From the NCBI GenBank assembly GCA_028345295.1, contig JAOMDA010000002.1, positions 62,001 through 126,000 on the forward strand: DNA of 64,000 nt. The letters are read 5' to 3'. Within the stretch, counting starts at the first letter, position 1. Every line of letters begins with the position of its first letter. A program made the translations under genes and the position numbers. The notes beneath the pieces are model-generated. The model worked only from the letters and a program-made list of their open reading frames with translations, was not told the DNA's origin and did no database searches. Of the stretch, positions 17,585-25,420 are shown in pieces. Origin of the DNA: Candidatus Nitrosopelagicus sp. GTDB lineage: Archaea > Thermoproteota > Nitrososphaeria > Nitrososphaerales > Nitrosopumilaceae.

Positions 17585-18328
17585 TTAGAATAATTTGTAA
17601 TCAGATACAATTGTAAAAATAATATTTGCACCAATGAGACAAGTTACACCAGAAATTCCATATTTCATGTATCGTACAGTCTGTTTCATTTTTGAGGATA
17701 ATATGAAGGGCAATCCTATAATTCCACTGATAACTGCCATTCCAATTATACTACCAATTCCAAATAAAACCAAAAAATACATCATCGTCTCAAAACCCAT
17801 AAACACCGATGCAGTTAATGCTACAAGACTTCCACTACCAGCTATTCCATGAATGCTACCGATGATGAATGATCTATGGTCATGTTTGTGATCCTTAGTA
17901 TGATTGTGTGTATGAACATGTGAAATACCATCTTCATGTGTATGAGGATGAATATGGCTTTGCCCTAGAATATTCTTATTCCTGATTGTAAAAATACCCA
18001 AGGCAATTAGCATAACTCCAACAATTAATTCTGCTCCAATAAAGAATTCATTGCCTATGGTTAATGAGAGTCCTGCAATTAAAACTCCAATAATTATGAT
18101 GCTTGATGTGTGCCCAAATCCCCATATCATTCCTCTCCATGAAGACATGGCAGTAAGATTTCTTAGAGATTGTTTTTTTGTAAGACTTGATTTTCCAGAT
18201 ACGATTTGAGTTGACATTGCACTAATATGGTCTGGTTCAAATGCATGAATTAATCCAACCATAGCCCCAGCTGCCAAAATTAAAAAATGATTTTGAGTTT
18301 GAAATAATTCTATGAAAAAATCAAACAT
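17585..18328 (-). CDS. NicO-type nickel/cobalt permease with His-rich loop
   Basis: GLIHAFEPDHISAMSTQ (HxxxxDH), second motif HGIAGSGSLVAL, loop HIHPHTHEDGISHVHTHNHTKDHKHDH. Confidence 0.85.
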   Translation of the reverse strand: MFDFFIELFQTQNHFLILAAGAMVGLIHAFEPDHISAMSTQIVSGKSSLTKKQSLRNLTAMSSWRGMIWGFGHTSSIIIIGVLIAGLSLTIGNEFFIGAELIVGVMLIALGIFTIRNKNILGQSHIHPHTHEDGISHVHTHNHTKDHKHDHRSFIIGSIHGIAGSGSLVALTASVFMGFETMMYFLVLFGIGSIIGMAVISGIIGLPFILSSKMKQTVRYMKYGISGVTCLIGANIIFTIVSDYKLF

Positions 18329-19443
18329 TAGTCTCTCTTTGGAATTTCTGCACGAGGATTTCCAAAATTATATGTGTTACCTTTACCACGATAATCTTTT
18401 GGTCTAACTGGATCTCCTTCATCTAATCCTCTTTTTGTTAATGATAATCCTGCAAGAAGTTCTACTACCAATCTTTGTCCTAATCCTGATGTAATTCCGC
18501 CATTATACGAGCTTGAATCACTAACATCGTACGCAGGTGCAATCTCTACCAAATCCATTGCAAATCTATCTGGATCAAATGATTTGGATAGTTGTCGTAT
18601 CATCCTTATTCCTTCTCTAGATGTCAAACCATTTGGTTCAGGCTCTCCAGTACCAGGGGCATAAGCAGGATCAAAAGAGTCAATGTCCCAACTAAGATAT
18701 ACTCCATCAGTTCCATCGTTGGCTCTGTCAGCAATTTCTTTTGCAATATAATCAATTCCTAATTCTTCTACATCTAACATTGTAAACCATTGGAAATCTT
18801 GGTCAGACATCCATTTGTACAAATCTCGACCTGGCCAATATCCTCTTGGACCTACCAATGAATAGTTTTTACCTTTCATACATCCCATTTCCATAATTCT
18901 TCTGATATGCGCGCCGTGGTCATACTTGAAACCAGTTAATCCTTGTGGGGCACAATCTGCGTGAGTATCAAAATGAATCATACCTATGTTTTTGAATTTC
19001 TTTGCAAAGGCTCTTACATTTGCATATGTAATTGAATGGTCTCCTCCAAGCATAACTGGTATTCCGTCAGCCTCAAGTACCTCTTTGACTTTTAGAGTCA
19101 TTCTCTTATGAGATTCAATTACATCTCCAGGTGAGACTATTACATCTCCATAATCTACAGTTCGAAAAGTTCCAAATGGGTCTGCACCAGTTTCAATATT
19201 AAATCGTTCAAATGGAGGAGACGGAACAGTAGATGCCGCTCTAATTGCTCTAGGACCATATCGTGCTCCAGGACGTATAGTAGTACCAAAATCAAATGGT
19301 TCTCCGATGATTGCAACATCTGGGTTTGCTTCAACTAATTCTTTGTGATTTTTCACCAAAGGAAGATGCAAAAATGTGTTAATTCCTACAAACGGAGCAA
19401 CATCTGCACCATTAAAATCATCTCCATAAAATTCCATACCCAT
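18328..19443 (-). CDS. Ureohydrolase (arginase/agmatinase/guanidinase superfamily)
   Basis: GGDHSITYAN, MIHFDTHADCA, SWDIDSFDPAYAPGTGEPEPNGLT Mn/Ni-ligand motifs; start at MGMEFYGDD. Confidence 0.93.
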   Translation of the reverse strand: MGMEFYGDDFNGADVAPFVGINTFLHLPLVKNHKELVEANPDVAIIGEPFDFGTTIRPGARYGPRAIRAASTVPSPPFERFNIETGADPFGTFRTVDYGDVIVSPGDVIESHKRMTLKVKEVLEADGIPVMLGGDHSITYANVRAFAKKFKNIGMIHFDTHADCAPQGLTGFKYDHGAHIRRIMEMGCMKGKNYSLVGPRGYWPGRDLYKWMSDQDFQWFTMLDVEELGIDYIAKEIADRANDGTDGVYLSWDIDSFDPAYAPGTGEPEPNGLTSREGIRMIRQLSKSFDPDRFAMDLVEIAPAYDVSDSSSYNGGITSGLGQRLVVELLAGLSLTKRGLDEGDPVRPKDYRGKGNTYNFGNPRAEIPKRD

Positions 19444-19568: not shown

Positions 19569-20807
19569 ATGATTTTTCAAAGAACAGAAAATGCATGGCA
19601 TTTTATCAATAAAGGTTTGGAATCCATGAATTATGAACAATATGAAAAAGCAATTCCAAAATTCAATAAAGCTATTTCCTTAGAACCCCACAATCATGTT
19701 GCTCAATTACATAAAGGAAGATCACTTTATAAAATTGGATATTATCAAAATGCATTACAATGTTTTAATACAATCTTGAAATCAGATCCTAAAAACTTGG
19801 ATGCATTACTTAATCAGGGTTTAACATTTCAAAAAATGGAAAAATTTCCACAAGCCATTGTCTCTTTTAAAAAACTACTTGAAATAGACTCACAAAATCT
19901 TGATGCATTAATTTCACTAGGATTATGTTTTAGTAAATTAGGCAAGAATGAGGATGCACTAAAACTTATTGACGACGCATTATCAATAAATCCAAAAAAC
20001 CCATCTGCATTATACAACAAAAGCCTAATTCTGGGAAGATTAAACCAAAATTCCGATTCACTATCTTTCCTTAATCAGGCCATTGAAGAAGATTCAAACC
20101 AATCTGCTAGATTATTTGAAAAAGGACAAGAATTAACAAAGCAAAAAAAACACGAAAAAGCAATCAGATATTATACACGTGCCTTAGAAATTGATAATAA
20201 AAATATCAAAGCATTAGTTGCCAAAGGCTGGACCCTTGATTATGCAGGTTTCTCTAGTAAAGATGTCATCCATTATTATGATGAGGCAATCAAAATTGAT
20301 CCACATTATTCTGATGCCTGGTTCAACAAAGGATTGTTACTTGATAGGACTAGATTACACAAAAAAGCCATAGAGTGCTTTGATGAGATTTTATCTTACG
20401 ATCCTGAAAATGTAAGGGCATTGTACTGCAAGGGTGCCTCACATGCGGCATTGAAACAATTTGGGAAAGGAAGATTTTGCTGTGAAGCTGCTTTATCAAT
20501 TGAGCCAAAAAATGTTTTTGCACTATGTACTATGGTTTGGTGTTTGCAACATTCAAAGAAATATGAAGAGGCATTAAAATTCTGTGATATTGCTTTGGAA
20601 ATAAATCCAAATTATGTTTATGCCTTGAGCTATAAAGGCAAATTACTATTTTTACTTAAGAAATTTTCTGAATCCTTAGAATATTACGAAAAGGCATTAA
20701 AAATTGAGCCAGATAATCAAACTGCTCTTTTTCATAAATTCAAGGTAGAAGCTGAGCTGGAAAATAGTAAAAAAGAATCATTAGTAAAAAAATTCATGAA
20801 ATTTTAA
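19569..20807 (+). CDS. TPR-repeat protein
   Basis: At least 10 tandem 34-aa TPR units (ALxxKGxxLxxxGxYxxAxxxFxxALxIDPxN). Confidence 0.92.
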   Translation: MIFQRTENAWHFINKGLESMNYEQYEKAIPKFNKAISLEPHNHVAQLHKGRSLYKIGYYQNALQCFNTILKSDPKNLDALLNQGLTFQKMEKFPQAIVSFKKLLEIDSQNLDALISLGLCFSKLGKNEDALKLIDDALSINPKNPSALYNKSLILGRLNQNSDSLSFLNQAIEEDSNQSARLFEKGQELTKQKKHEKAIRYYTRALEIDNKNIKALVAKGWTLDYAGFSSKDVIHYYDEAIKIDPHYSDAWFNKGLLLDRTRLHKKAIECFDEILSYDPENVRALYCKGASHAALKQFGKGRFCCEAALSIEPKNVFALCTMVWCLQHSKKYEEALKFCDIALEINPNYVYALSYKGKLLFLLKKFSESLEYYEKALKIEPDNQTALFHKFKVEAELENSKKESLVKKFMKF

Positions 20808-20869
20808 TATGTATCAAGTATTCGTACAATACTTAGAATTCTTTAATACTAATTTTGGTAAAAAATAAT

Positions 20870-21121
20870 ATGGATCCTGTTAGTTCTCCAGATGAAATAT
20901 TTGCTGCATCTAAACGTGTAATTGATACCTTATACGGTGATGTATCTGATTTCAAAATAAATGAAACATTTCAAAAACCTGAAAAAGGACCTAGAGAATC
21001 ATGGGATGTTCAAGTTAATTTCATGATAGACGGACTAAAATATACTGTAGATTTGGATATTGAAGAAAAAAGTGGTCGTGTAGTATATGCCCAATTAATT
21101 GATACAATGACTCCTCTCTGA
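20870..21121 (+). CDS. Small conserved hypothetical protein
   Basis: MDPVSSPDEIFAASKRVIDTLYGD...; ATG after AT-rich promoter. Confidence 0.6.
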   Translation: MDPVSSPDEIFAASKRVIDTLYGDVSDFKINETFQKPEKGPRESWDVQVNFMIDGLKYTVDLDIEEKSGRVVYAQLIDTMTPL

Positions 21122-21136
21122 TCTTTAGATTTCTTA

Positions 21137-21655
21137 TTAAACAGTCAATACAGCTCTTGCTGTTCTAACCTTTTCAATAATCTCTGAAATAAATCCATCC
21201 ACAAATTGTTCAAAATTCACAGTTTTGTATTTTGCAGTAGTTTTTCTCCGTTTTTTGTATTCATCACGTAACCATTTAAAATCACTCTCATTCATTTTTA
21301 ATGCATTATTTTCTAAATCATTTTTTGATTCAATCATGTTGACAAGAAAATAACTCACAAATCTAGTAAAACACTTGACATTATACAACTCCAGATATTC
21401 CTCTTTATTTTCTTCATAACTGTTTTTTAGCCATTCTTTGATGTCTGATCTGATGGTGATTGTGTTATACCGCCCTGTTAAATCTAGTCTTAACTTATGA
21501 GTGTGTATTGTATATCGCCCTGCCTTGACCTCATTCATCATAATAATGAGCGTACTAGGAAGAAACATTCCCAGATAGTTTCTATCTGTCGTCTGTTGTA
21601 ATTTATGCATCACCGCTGGTTTGACTCCAATCGTAGAATAGCCTTTTCCTGGCAT
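21137..21655 (-). CDS. Hypothetical protein, N-terminus loosely ribbon-helix-helix-like
   Basis: GKGYSTIGVKPAVMHKLQQTTDR start; charged helical remainder. Confidence 0.5.
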   Translation of the reverse strand: MPGKGYSTIGVKPAVMHKLQQTTDRNYLGMFLPSTLIIMMNEVKAGRYTIHTHKLRLDLTGRYNTITIRSDIKEWLKNSYEENKEEYLELYNVKCFTRFVSYFLVNMIESKNDLENNALKMNESDFKWLRDEYKKRRKTTAKYKTVNFEQFVDGFISEIIEKVRTARAVLTV

Positions 21656-21985: not shown

Positions 21986-22041
21986 TAGAATTTTTCAATC
22001 TTTATATCATATTGATCACTTTAATATTCAATTTGGTAGAG

Positions 22042-23658
22042 ATGGACGGATTTGCAGCTGCAGTTGCGGTATTTATTGTTATTACAATTGTCGTTGGCGT
22101 TTTTGCAGGCAAACTTGTTCAGAAAAGTGGTAAACGATTAATTGTTGCAGGAAAAAGTTTGCCTCTATTTATGGTGGGAACCATGCTTGCTGCACAAGCA
22201 GTTGATGGAAATTCAACGTTAGGAAATATTGCCCTTGTCTTTGAGTTTGGATTTTGGGCTGGTGCAGTTATTCCAATTGGACTGGGAATATGTCTATTGC
22301 TTGTAGGTGCATTTTATGCAAAACCTCTAAACAAAATGTCAATGATAACATTACCTGATTTCTATTTCAGACGATATGGTAATGGTGCAGAGGGCATTTC
22401 TAGCATATTAATGATAGTCAGTTTCTTAATACTTGTTGCAGGAAATCTGGCTGCATGTGGATTTATTTTGGAAATTGTTTTTGGTATTGAGTATTTCTAT
22501 GGAATTGCTATTGCCGCAGTTGTTGTTGTAGTATACACTGTTGCAGGAGGTCTGTTTGCGTCTGCATACACGAATCTGTTTCAAGTATATCTGGCCATAG
22601 GATCGTTCTGGGCTGCATTCATTTTCTTCTTAGGAGGCTTTGCAGATACACCTTGGGATGTAATTTACAATAATGCACCGGCAGGATTCATGGATCTTTC
22701 AGGATTATTTGATGTTGCTAATGGGGCTCTGCTTAACTGGGGTGCTATATTTGCGCTGGGCTTGGGAGATATTATCGCGTTAGATTTCATGGAAAGGGTA
22801 TTTGCTGCCAAAAATCCAAAAACTGCACGAAGAGGTGCATTAATGGGTGGTGCATTAACAATGTTTACTGTGGTTCCAACTAGCATGTTGGGCATTGTTG
22901 CATTCTTCTATTTGCCTGCAGACACATTACCTGATCTAGCAATGCCTTTACTTGCTACTCAACATATGCCGTTTGCCATTGGCGCAGGAATCTTGATGGG
23001 TGTTGTAGGTGCATCAATGTCAACTGCAAGTGGTGGATTATTGGCCATTTCAAGTGTTATTTCTAGGAATCTTATGCAGAGAATTATCCGAAGACGGTGG
23101 ATGAACAAACCTAATTGGAGTGACAATAAGTTACTTAACACAACTCGTGTCGTAATAGTTCCAATGATGGTAATTGGAACCGCAATTGGTTATTTTGTTC
23201 CAGCACCAGGAGTTTATCTCATTTTAGCATTTGATATAATGTTTGCAGGTGCATTTGTTCCGTTAACATTAGGACTTTTCTGGAAGAAGGCAAATATGCC
23301 TGCAACTATCGCCGCATTACTTGTAGGATCCATATTACGATTACAATTCTTCTGGACTATGCCAGAAGAATGGTGGGGACTCGATACAATGATTCCTCCA
23401 ATAGTTTCATTAATTGTGTTTGTTGGAGTTGCATACGGTACACAACACAAGTATCCAGGAAAAGCTAGACATGATGTTAGAGATTATGTACCACCAGAAG
23501 AAGATGTGATTGCTGGAGAAGATTTGAAACACTTTGGTGATGGAACCCAAGCCATGGGTGGAGGTCAAAGTGATTCAGACTCACCTGACAATTCTGACAA
23601 TTCTGATCTAGCGGAATATGAAAAAGATTATCTCGAGAGAATGAAGAAACAAGAATGA
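22042..23658 (+). CDS. Sodium:solute symporter (SSS) family transporter
   Basis: 13ish TM segments; GNSTLGNIA, YTVAGGLFASAYTNLFQ SSS signatures; alternative TTG start at 22012. Confidence 0.88.
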   Translation: MDGFAAAVAVFIVITIVVGVFAGKLVQKSGKRLIVAGKSLPLFMVGTMLAAQAVDGNSTLGNIALVFEFGFWAGAVIPIGLGICLLLVGAFYAKPLNKMSMITLPDFYFRRYGNGAEGISSILMIVSFLILVAGNLAACGFILEIVFGIEYFYGIAIAAVVVVVYTVAGGLFASAYTNLFQVYLAIGSFWAAFIFFLGGFADTPWDVIYNNAPAGFMDLSGLFDVANGALLNWGAIFALGLGDIIALDFMERVFAAKNPKTARRGALMGGALTMFTVVPTSMLGIVAFFYLPADTLPDLAMPLLATQHMPFAIGAGILMGVVGASMSTASGGLLAISSVISRNLMQRIIRRRWMNKPNWSDNKLLNTTRVVIVPMMVIGTAIGYFVPAPGVYLILAFDIMFAGAFVPLTLGLFWKKANMPATIAALLVGSILRLQFFWTMPEEWWGLDTMIPPIVSLIVFVGVAYGTQHKYPGKARHDVRDYVPPEEDVIAGEDLKHFGDGTQAMGGGQSDSDSPDNSDNSDLAEYEKDYLERMKKQE

Positions 23659-23731: not shown

Positions 23732-25420
23732 ATGAAATATCCTGGATTATTAGATGATGATATATCTCGTGTTGGAACCAATGAAGCACAAATGTACAAT
23801 CTGCTCTCTGGTACGGTAGTTGCTGATCTAGTTAAAACATGTCTTGGTCCTCGAGGAATGTCAAAAATGTATATCGATATACTTGGAGAAGACACTTTGA
23901 CAAAGCACGGTGGTGCATTTTTAAGAAAAGTAGACGTTGACCATCCTGCCGCAAAATCTGTTATTGATGCAGTAAATACTGTTGATACTCATGTGGGCGA
24001 TGGTACTTCATCTGTGGCTATTTTGATGGGTAGTCTATTGGGTAATGCCAAAAAATTACTAAATTTGGGGATCCCAACTTCAACCATAGTTAGAGGATAT
24101 GAAATGGGTCTTGATTTGACCTTGGACACTTTAGACGAAATTAAAATAAAACAAAATAATGACAATTTGGAAAAAATGAGGGAATTATTAATCACCTGTA
24201 TTACTGGAAAGACAATTTTTGATTTACAAGAAGATCAAGGGAAAATAGTTGATATGATTATTGAGGCGGTACTTGATGTTGCAGACTTGAAGAACAATCA
24301 TTTTGCAATTGACGATATTAAAATTGAAGACAAGATTGGAAATATAACTGAAATCCAACTGATTAAGGGTACTCTGATTGATAAAACAATAGATAGTTCT
24401 GCAATGCCAAAATGCATCAATGATGCAAAAATTCTCTTAATCAATGAACCATTAGAAACAATGAAAACTAGATACGAATCAGAAATTGAGATTACATCTC
24501 CTGAACAAATGAGCCAATTTCTTGTTCAAGAAAATAATGATCTTGATCATCTTGTACAGAATATTGTTAATTCTGGTGCCAATGTAGTAATTTCTAGAAA
24601 AGGCGTAAGTGATTTCGTTCAAGAATCTCTTGCAAAAAAAGGTATAATCTCAATGAGACGTGTAAAGTACAATGATTTATGGTGGTTAGAAAAAGCGGTT
24701 AATGCCAAAACTTGTGAAAGTATTGAAAAAATATCTTCTCATGAATTAGGCTTTGCAAGAAAAATATACGAAAAAACTGTAGGTGGTGATCCAATGGTAT
24801 TTGTAGAAGGTAAATCCCCAAAATCTGTTACAATATTGTTAAGAGCAAATTCAAAACGATATCTAGATGAACTTCATAGAAATATTCTAAATGCATTTCA
24901 TGTACTGCAAAATTTCATTGAGAATCCATTTGTTGTTTGTGGTGCAGGTTCTGTAGAAGGACTTTTGTCACAGAAAATTAAAGAGCAATCTGTAACTATT
25001 GATGGCAAAGAGCAGTTAGCAGTTGACAAATTTGCTGACTCAATCCTAGAAATCCCACTAACTTTAGCCAGAAATGTAGGAATGGATGTTTTAGACACAA
25101 AAACACGCCTACAAGCAAAATTTGCAAACTCTAATGGGAAAACAAGATGGTATGGAATCAACTCAGAAACAAGAAATATCTCTGATATGTCATCATCGAA
25201 AATCATTGAAACAGTGGCTGTGAAACAACAAGTCTTCAAAACTGCCGTCGAAGCAACAAATTTGATTCTAAGTGTAAATGACGTCTTCATGAAAAACATA
25301 ATTGACAATACACATTGTCATGTTGATGGAGTAGTTCACGCTCATCATGATCCAGGAAAAAACCATAATCATTTTGAACAAGAAGGATTAGAACAAAGAC
25401 AAATGCATCAATATTACTGA
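23732..25420 (+). CDS. Divergent group II chaperonin (thermosome-like) paralog with His-rich C-terminus
   Basis: CLGPRGMSKMYIDILG, VGDGTSSVAILMGSLL retained; NDG, catalytic DA and GGG motifs altered; tail HCHVDGVVHAHHDPGKNHNH. Confidence 0.9.
   Translation: MKYPGLLDDDISRVGTNEAQMYNLLSGTVVADLVKTCLGPRGMSKMYIDILGEDTLTKHGGAFLRKVDVDHPAAKSVIDAVNTVDTHVGDGTSSVAILMGSLLGNAKKLLNLGIPTSTIVRGYEMGLDLTLDTLDEIKIKQNNDNLEKMRELLITCITGKTIFDLQEDQGKIVDMIIEAVLDVADLKNNHFAIDDIKIEDKIGNITEIQLIKGTLIDKTIDSSAMPKCINDAKILLINEPLETMKTRYESEIEITSPEQMSQFLVQENNDLDHLVQNIVNSGANVVISRKGVSDFVQESLAKKGIISMRRVKYNDLWWLEKAVNAKTCESIEKISSHELGFARKIYEKTVGGDPMVFVEGKSPKSVTILLRANSKRYLDELHRNILNAFHVLQNFIENPFVVCGAGSVEGLLSQKIKEQSVTIDGKEQLAVDKFADSILEIPLTLARNVGMDVLDTKTRLQAKFANSNGKTRWYGINSETRNISDMSSSKIIETVAVKQQVFKTAVEATNLILSVNDVFMKNIIDNTHCHVDGVVHAHHDPGKNHNHFEQEGLEQRQMHQYY

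Follow-up and report, generated by a model that had tools for sequence, protein, structure and literature searches.

A 64,000-nucleotide stretch of the Candidatus Nitrosopelagicus sp. genome (the window) holds a ureohydrolase gene that runs directly into a gene for a putative nickel permease. What does this pair do for its host? Archaeal AmoA was found in the host genome, so the label of ammonia oxidizer stands. The original prediction read the pair as a candidate for a translationally coupled, Ni-dependent guanidine hydrolase module. Both genes and their TAATG overlap are indeed present on the minus strand, within a wider island (Table 1). Our analysis favors another reading, to which we give a probability of about 0.5. 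The island might be a module for scavenging guanidino compounds, made up of a distinct archaeal ureohydrolase, a dedicated sodium:solute symporter (SSS), and nickel-handling helpers.

TABLE 1 Island features in the window
Feature	Position	Strand	Basis
NicO/UreH-like nickel permease candidate, 247 aa, with HX4DH and His-rich loop	17585..18328	-	Motif, alignment
TAATG stop/start overlap, ureohydrolase to NicO	18326..18330	-	Minus strand reads GAGACTAATGTTTGATTTT; one base common to TAA and ATG
Ureohydrolase (PF00491), 371 aa, with GTGEPEP (E267) and full metal ligand set; archaeal clade	18328..19443	-	Profile, alignment, tree
TPR protein, divergent neighbor	19569..20807	+	22/25 well-covered loci
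Small protein, 88 aa, family of no assigned function	20855..21121	+	24/25 well-covered loci
Conserved protein, 172 aa, no assigned function; ribbon-helix-helix-like by eye only	21137..21655	-	25/25 well-covered loci
SSS, island-specific type	22012..23658	+	Profile, synteny, identity
Divergent thermosome/Cpn60-TCP1 subunit with conserved His-rich C-terminal tail	23732..25420	+	PF00118, tail alignment

The ureohydrolase and its relatives

The ureohydrolase open reading frame (ORF) is intact and matches PF00491 with 269 bits. Its true start is MGMEFYGD, which is kept across 29 aligned sequences. All six metal ligands (GGDH, DxHxD, and DxD) are present, as in the arginase superfamily. The metal motifs had been described as unusual, and the quoted motifs do occur. 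However, they hold all of the canonical ligands and are therefore ordinary as metal motifs. The odd residue is Glu267 of GTGEPEP, which is invariant in 29 sequences from ammonia-oxidizing archaea (AOA) and is also found in three haloarchaeal orthologues.

We mapped four residues that have been named in the guanidine hydrolase GdmH (PMC11410670). Three are retained, with T55, H176, and E300 of the window enzyme matching GdmH Thr105, His222, and Glu344 (Nitrospira inopinata numbering). The fourth, Trp313 (Trp305 in Synechocystis), is tied to guanidine specificity, and Glu267 takes its place. Therefore, by the published criterion, the enzyme is not a guanidine hydrolase. The alignment was so uniform that an AF2 model of the enzyme reached a pLDDT of just 54, so the model was discarded as a basis for comparing pocket or fold.

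The nearest solved relatives are GbuA guanidinobutyrase, with the highest PDB score, and then two GdmH-type guanidine hydrolases. For a haloarchaeal orthologue, the best solved match is GdmH. In a maximum-likelihood tree of 20 sequences, the AOA and haloarchaeal enzymes form one clade (100/100), GdmH forms its own clade apart from it (100/100), and the archaeal agmatinase group is split off (97/99). There is no firm order among GdmH, GbuA/GpuA, PAH, and the AOA/haloarchaeal clade in this tree. A phylogeny had been proposed with the original prediction, and it separates the enzyme from agmatinase as expected but from GdmH as well. By sequence, the enzyme falls in the same region of the superfamily as GdmH and the guanidino-acid hydrolases, and its clade appears separate from the bacterial guanidino-acid hydrolases too.

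The likeness to GdmH (Synechocystis Sll1077 and the N. inopinata guanidinase) covers the ureohydrolase family itself, an alignable N-terminal region, the GTGxPEPxG loop, and the Thr, His, and Glu positions. The cyanobacterial system also has linked metal genes, as the island may. However, besides its Glu and its separate clade, the window enzyme has extra VPSPP and SDSSSYN insertions. Its island has an SSS where GdmH has APC/ABC import and a thermosome where GdmH has HypA/HypB-type chaperones. GbuA and the guanidinopropionase GpuA lie in the same part of the tree but have Thr in GTGxP, where the window enzyme has Glu. We know of no chaperonin or urease-gamma partner for either.

The enzyme is 96% identical to the Nitrosopumilus copy, whereas its window neighbors are only about 53 to 82% identical. 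The pattern seems to reflect a strongly conserved enzyme more than a recent transfer of the whole island into the window genome, which the 96% figure had first brought up. In the window genus, the ureohydrolase was seen in just two sampled genomes (the window genome and G159), so the island is patchy inside the genus. Two genomes carry two copies at separate loci (L104/L106 and L111/L117), and the copy in one Nitrososphaera MAG has an in-frame TAG (L133:7364-8473).

The NicO junction and a urease-gamma-like gene

The overlap between the ureohydrolase and NicO genes had been taken as coupling. The common base is real, but the arrangement differs from that in most relatives. In 56 named loci, the gene directly downstream of the ureohydrolase encodes a urease-gamma-like protein of ~110 to 144 aa, and the ureohydrolase stop and the start of this gene overlap or touch in nearly all of them. 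In a close relative (L075), the first five and the last nine or so codons of the urease-gamma-like gene flank a deletion, and L083 likewise retains a truncated form. Nothing of the gene is left in the window, where the NicO ATG has taken the junction. Sequence comparison of these loci indicates that a local deletion created the overlap with NicO, which is a scar and not an ancestral arrangement, and that the ancestral coupled partner of the ureohydrolase is the urease-gamma-like gene.

The urease-gamma-like protein matches PF00547 above the cutoff. Its AF2 model (pLDDT 86) has a Foldseek probability of 1.00 to urease gamma, and a profile search with the protein also returns urease gamma subunits. 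The protein is dispensable, as its gene has been lost from the window genome and a few more. The protein was also found in two loci (L059 and L060) of the genus g41, in genomes that both have no urease. This suggests that it is more than a plain urease subunit there. It is probably a binding or assembly partner of the ureohydrolase.

Conservation of the island and the metal question

Synteny was counted in 25 named loci that were well covered, with at least 6 kb on either side. The island SSS was present in all 25, the urease-gamma-like gene in 22, the tailed thermosome in 20, NicO in 19, and UreC in 13. By this gene content, the wider island is conserved across three AOA families. It varies in places; genome f5 (L051) has the ureohydrolase, SSS, NicO, and urease, but the tailed thermosome was not found. 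Two families of no assigned function (f2 and f4) gave no convincing Pfam match, and f4 had no PDB profile match either.

Compared with a separate, longer SSS that neighbors urease in the same genome, the island SSS shows ~25% identity; its identity to the SSS that accompanies haloarchaeal ureohydrolases is ~37%. In two of three haloarchaeal loci (L072 and L073), an SSS adjoins the ureohydrolase and no urease is annotated in the fetched stretch. The third has a urease operon next door and no SSS in the fetched stretch. Thus, the SSS-ureohydrolase pair is common to two archaeal phyla. The L072 island, on Haloarcula marismortui pHMA411, adds a formamidase, an APC permease, a universal stress protein, and a divergent thermosome, which suggests a broader amide/amidine nitrogen island. 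Its chaperonin shares just 24% identity with the window thermosome, so we make no claim of orthology.

The original prediction argued that a dedicated nickel permease implies a nickel enzyme. The HX4DH motif (H28-D33-H34) and His array of NicO are invariant in 11 aligned sequences. The Pfam NicO signal is weak, with matches in 8 of the 11 and none in the window copy. The predicted synteny of NicO with the ureohydrolase holds mostly in the Nitrosopumilaceae, but most Nitrososphaeraceae loci, and the haloarchaeal loci that we looked at, have no NicO near the enzyme. A search for nickel chaperones and urease, also proposed with the original prediction, found a urease operon on another contig of the window genome but only a subthreshold HypA match. 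In many relatives, the urease operon lies inside the island itself. NicO may therefore serve urease rather than the ureohydrolase, and the step from permease to nickel enzyme is ambiguous.

Urease and the ureohydrolase often occur together. Among 401 genomes of the class, urease was found in 74 of 86 genomes with the ureohydrolase and in 66 of 315 without it (Fisher, 8e-29; shared ancestry ignored). Not every host uses the urea, however: five genomes of genus g41 have the ureohydrolase without urease, and the urea must follow another route in them. In the window genome, UreB and UreC are fused in a 710-aa ORF (contig C18; L141:6076-8208, minus strand). UreC ORFs are ~700 to 720 aa in most urease-positive genomes of the window genus and ~570 to 600 aa in most others.

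The window thermosome matches PF00118 with 431 bits, compared with 626 and 623 for the two canonical thermosomes of its genome. These have Gly/Met-rich tails with no His. In contrast, the pattern of the window tail, NTHCHVDGVVHAHHDPGKNHNHFEQEGLEQRQMHQYY, is kept in the AOA copies, whose last 75 residues hold 8 to 10 His. The tailed thermosome occurred in 77 of the 86 genomes with the ureohydrolase and in 5 of the 315 without it (shared ancestry ignored). Four of these five exceptions are on contigs broken inside or beside the island, and the fifth is on a 3.6-kb contig. When only urease-positive genomes were counted, it was found in 68/74 with the ureohydrolase and 5/66 without it (shared ancestry again ignored). 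Therefore, the tailed thermosome tracks the ureohydrolase, and urease does not explain the association. This tie strengthens a metal, and specifically a nickel, reading.

A model for the role of the thermosome, by analogy only, is Helicobacter pylori HspA, which is described as a nickel-scavenging chaperone (PMC8779794). Both are chaperonin-system proteins with a nickel-type, His-rich C-terminal tail in a nickel-enzyme context (a presumed one for the island), but HspA is a co-chaperonin (GroES) and the island protein is a group II thermosome subunit. A nickel permease and nickel chaperones with a ureohydrolase are also the layout of the nickel enzymes MefH/DmgH (MetCaCb; PMC11399263). The operon of these metformin and dimethylguanidine hydrolases consists of the ureohydrolase, a partner, nickel chaperones, a nickel permease, and urea genes. 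However, their partner is an inactive ureohydrolase paralogue, whereas that of the island is the urease-gamma-like protein, and the window enzyme is less similar in sequence to MefH/DmgH than to GbuA and GdmH. Together, the NicO-like permease, the His-rich tail, the frequent urease, and the MefH/DmgH-type layout make nickel dependence of the ureohydrolase plausible, although its sequence and first-shell ligands cannot separate nickel from manganese.

Possible roles of the island

In the scavenging module that we favor, the SSS would bring in a small compound of the guanidino or a similar amidine type, which the dinuclear ureohydrolase would split into urea and an amine. Where present, urease would convert the urea to ammonia, to be oxidized and assimilated. 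Delivery of the metal, probably nickel, and help with folding the enzyme would fall to NicO and the His-tailed thermosome. In most lineages, the urease-gamma-like protein would be translated right after the ureohydrolase and might help to fold, load, or assemble it. The substrate is probably something other than guanidine itself. A bolder version, which we regard as tentative, is a new maturation system for a nickel ureohydrolase, in which a urease-gamma paralogue is the partner, the chaperonin His tail carries or delivers nickel, and an unrecognized guanidino compound is used.

Alternatively, the island might serve urea. NicO and the tailed thermosome would then act on urease, extra urea would come from an ordinary manganese ureohydrolase acting on some internal compound, and urea would be the cargo of the SSS. 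The urease operon in the window genome, and in the island of many relatives, is consistent with this. So is an earlier report on NS-delta AOA, which described SSS-"SpeB" adjacency and read it as a urea transporter and agmatinase (PMC11131427). That is very probably the same gene pair; the accessible text of the report does not mention the urease-gamma-like protein or the tailed thermosome. Even so, we consider a urea module doubtful. The thermosome follows the ureohydrolase even within urease-positive genomes, urease in the same genome has its own long SSS, the L072 and L073 pairs have no urease annotated alongside, and genus g41 carries the island without urease. The same report's SpeB annotation would suit an agmatinase or N1-aminopropylagmatine ureohydrolase of polyamine synthesis, and the agmatinase model PRK02190 does match the enzyme, below its cutoff. 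However, every NCBIfam model scored the enzyme below cutoff (for the agmatinase model TIGR01230, 155 bits against 174), and it falls outside the archaeal agmatinase clade. Most of the AOA genomes with the enzyme hold one or more additional ureohydrolase matches, which makes a role in polyamine synthesis unlikely; in the window genome, which is 92% complete, a single ureohydrolase was seen. A patchy distribution and a dedicated symporter are also unlike housekeeping. The original prediction was right to prefer another role to that of a housekeeping agmatinase, and we think a polyamine role quite improbable.

Less probable again is the Ni-dependent guanidine hydrolase originally proposed. The GdmH-type relatives, the three retained residues, and the nearby NicO and His-tailed chaperonin speak for it. 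However, the invariant Glu in place of the key Trp, in both the AOA and the haloarchaeal sequences, and the separate clade argue against it, as do the lack of HypA over the cutoff in the window genome and of a guanidine riboswitch among the Rfam matches in the window. Furthermore, genes for degrading guanidine were not found in AOA by published genome screens (PMC11410670 and PMC12625717).

The listed proven growth substrates of ammonia oxidizers are only ammonia, urea, cyanate, and, for comammox, guanidine. Our findings suggest that many AOA feed on a guanidine-type compound by way of the island enzyme. To our knowledge, no dedicated chaperonin for a ureohydrolase has been known before, and if its link to the His-tailed thermosome is true, this would be the first. 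The urease-gamma paralogue beside the ureohydrolase is a testable new protein partnership. A conserved island that joins import to a ureohydrolase in three AOA families, and whose SSS-ureohydrolase pair extends to haloarchaea, suggests one more source of organic nitrogen for organisms that are very abundant.
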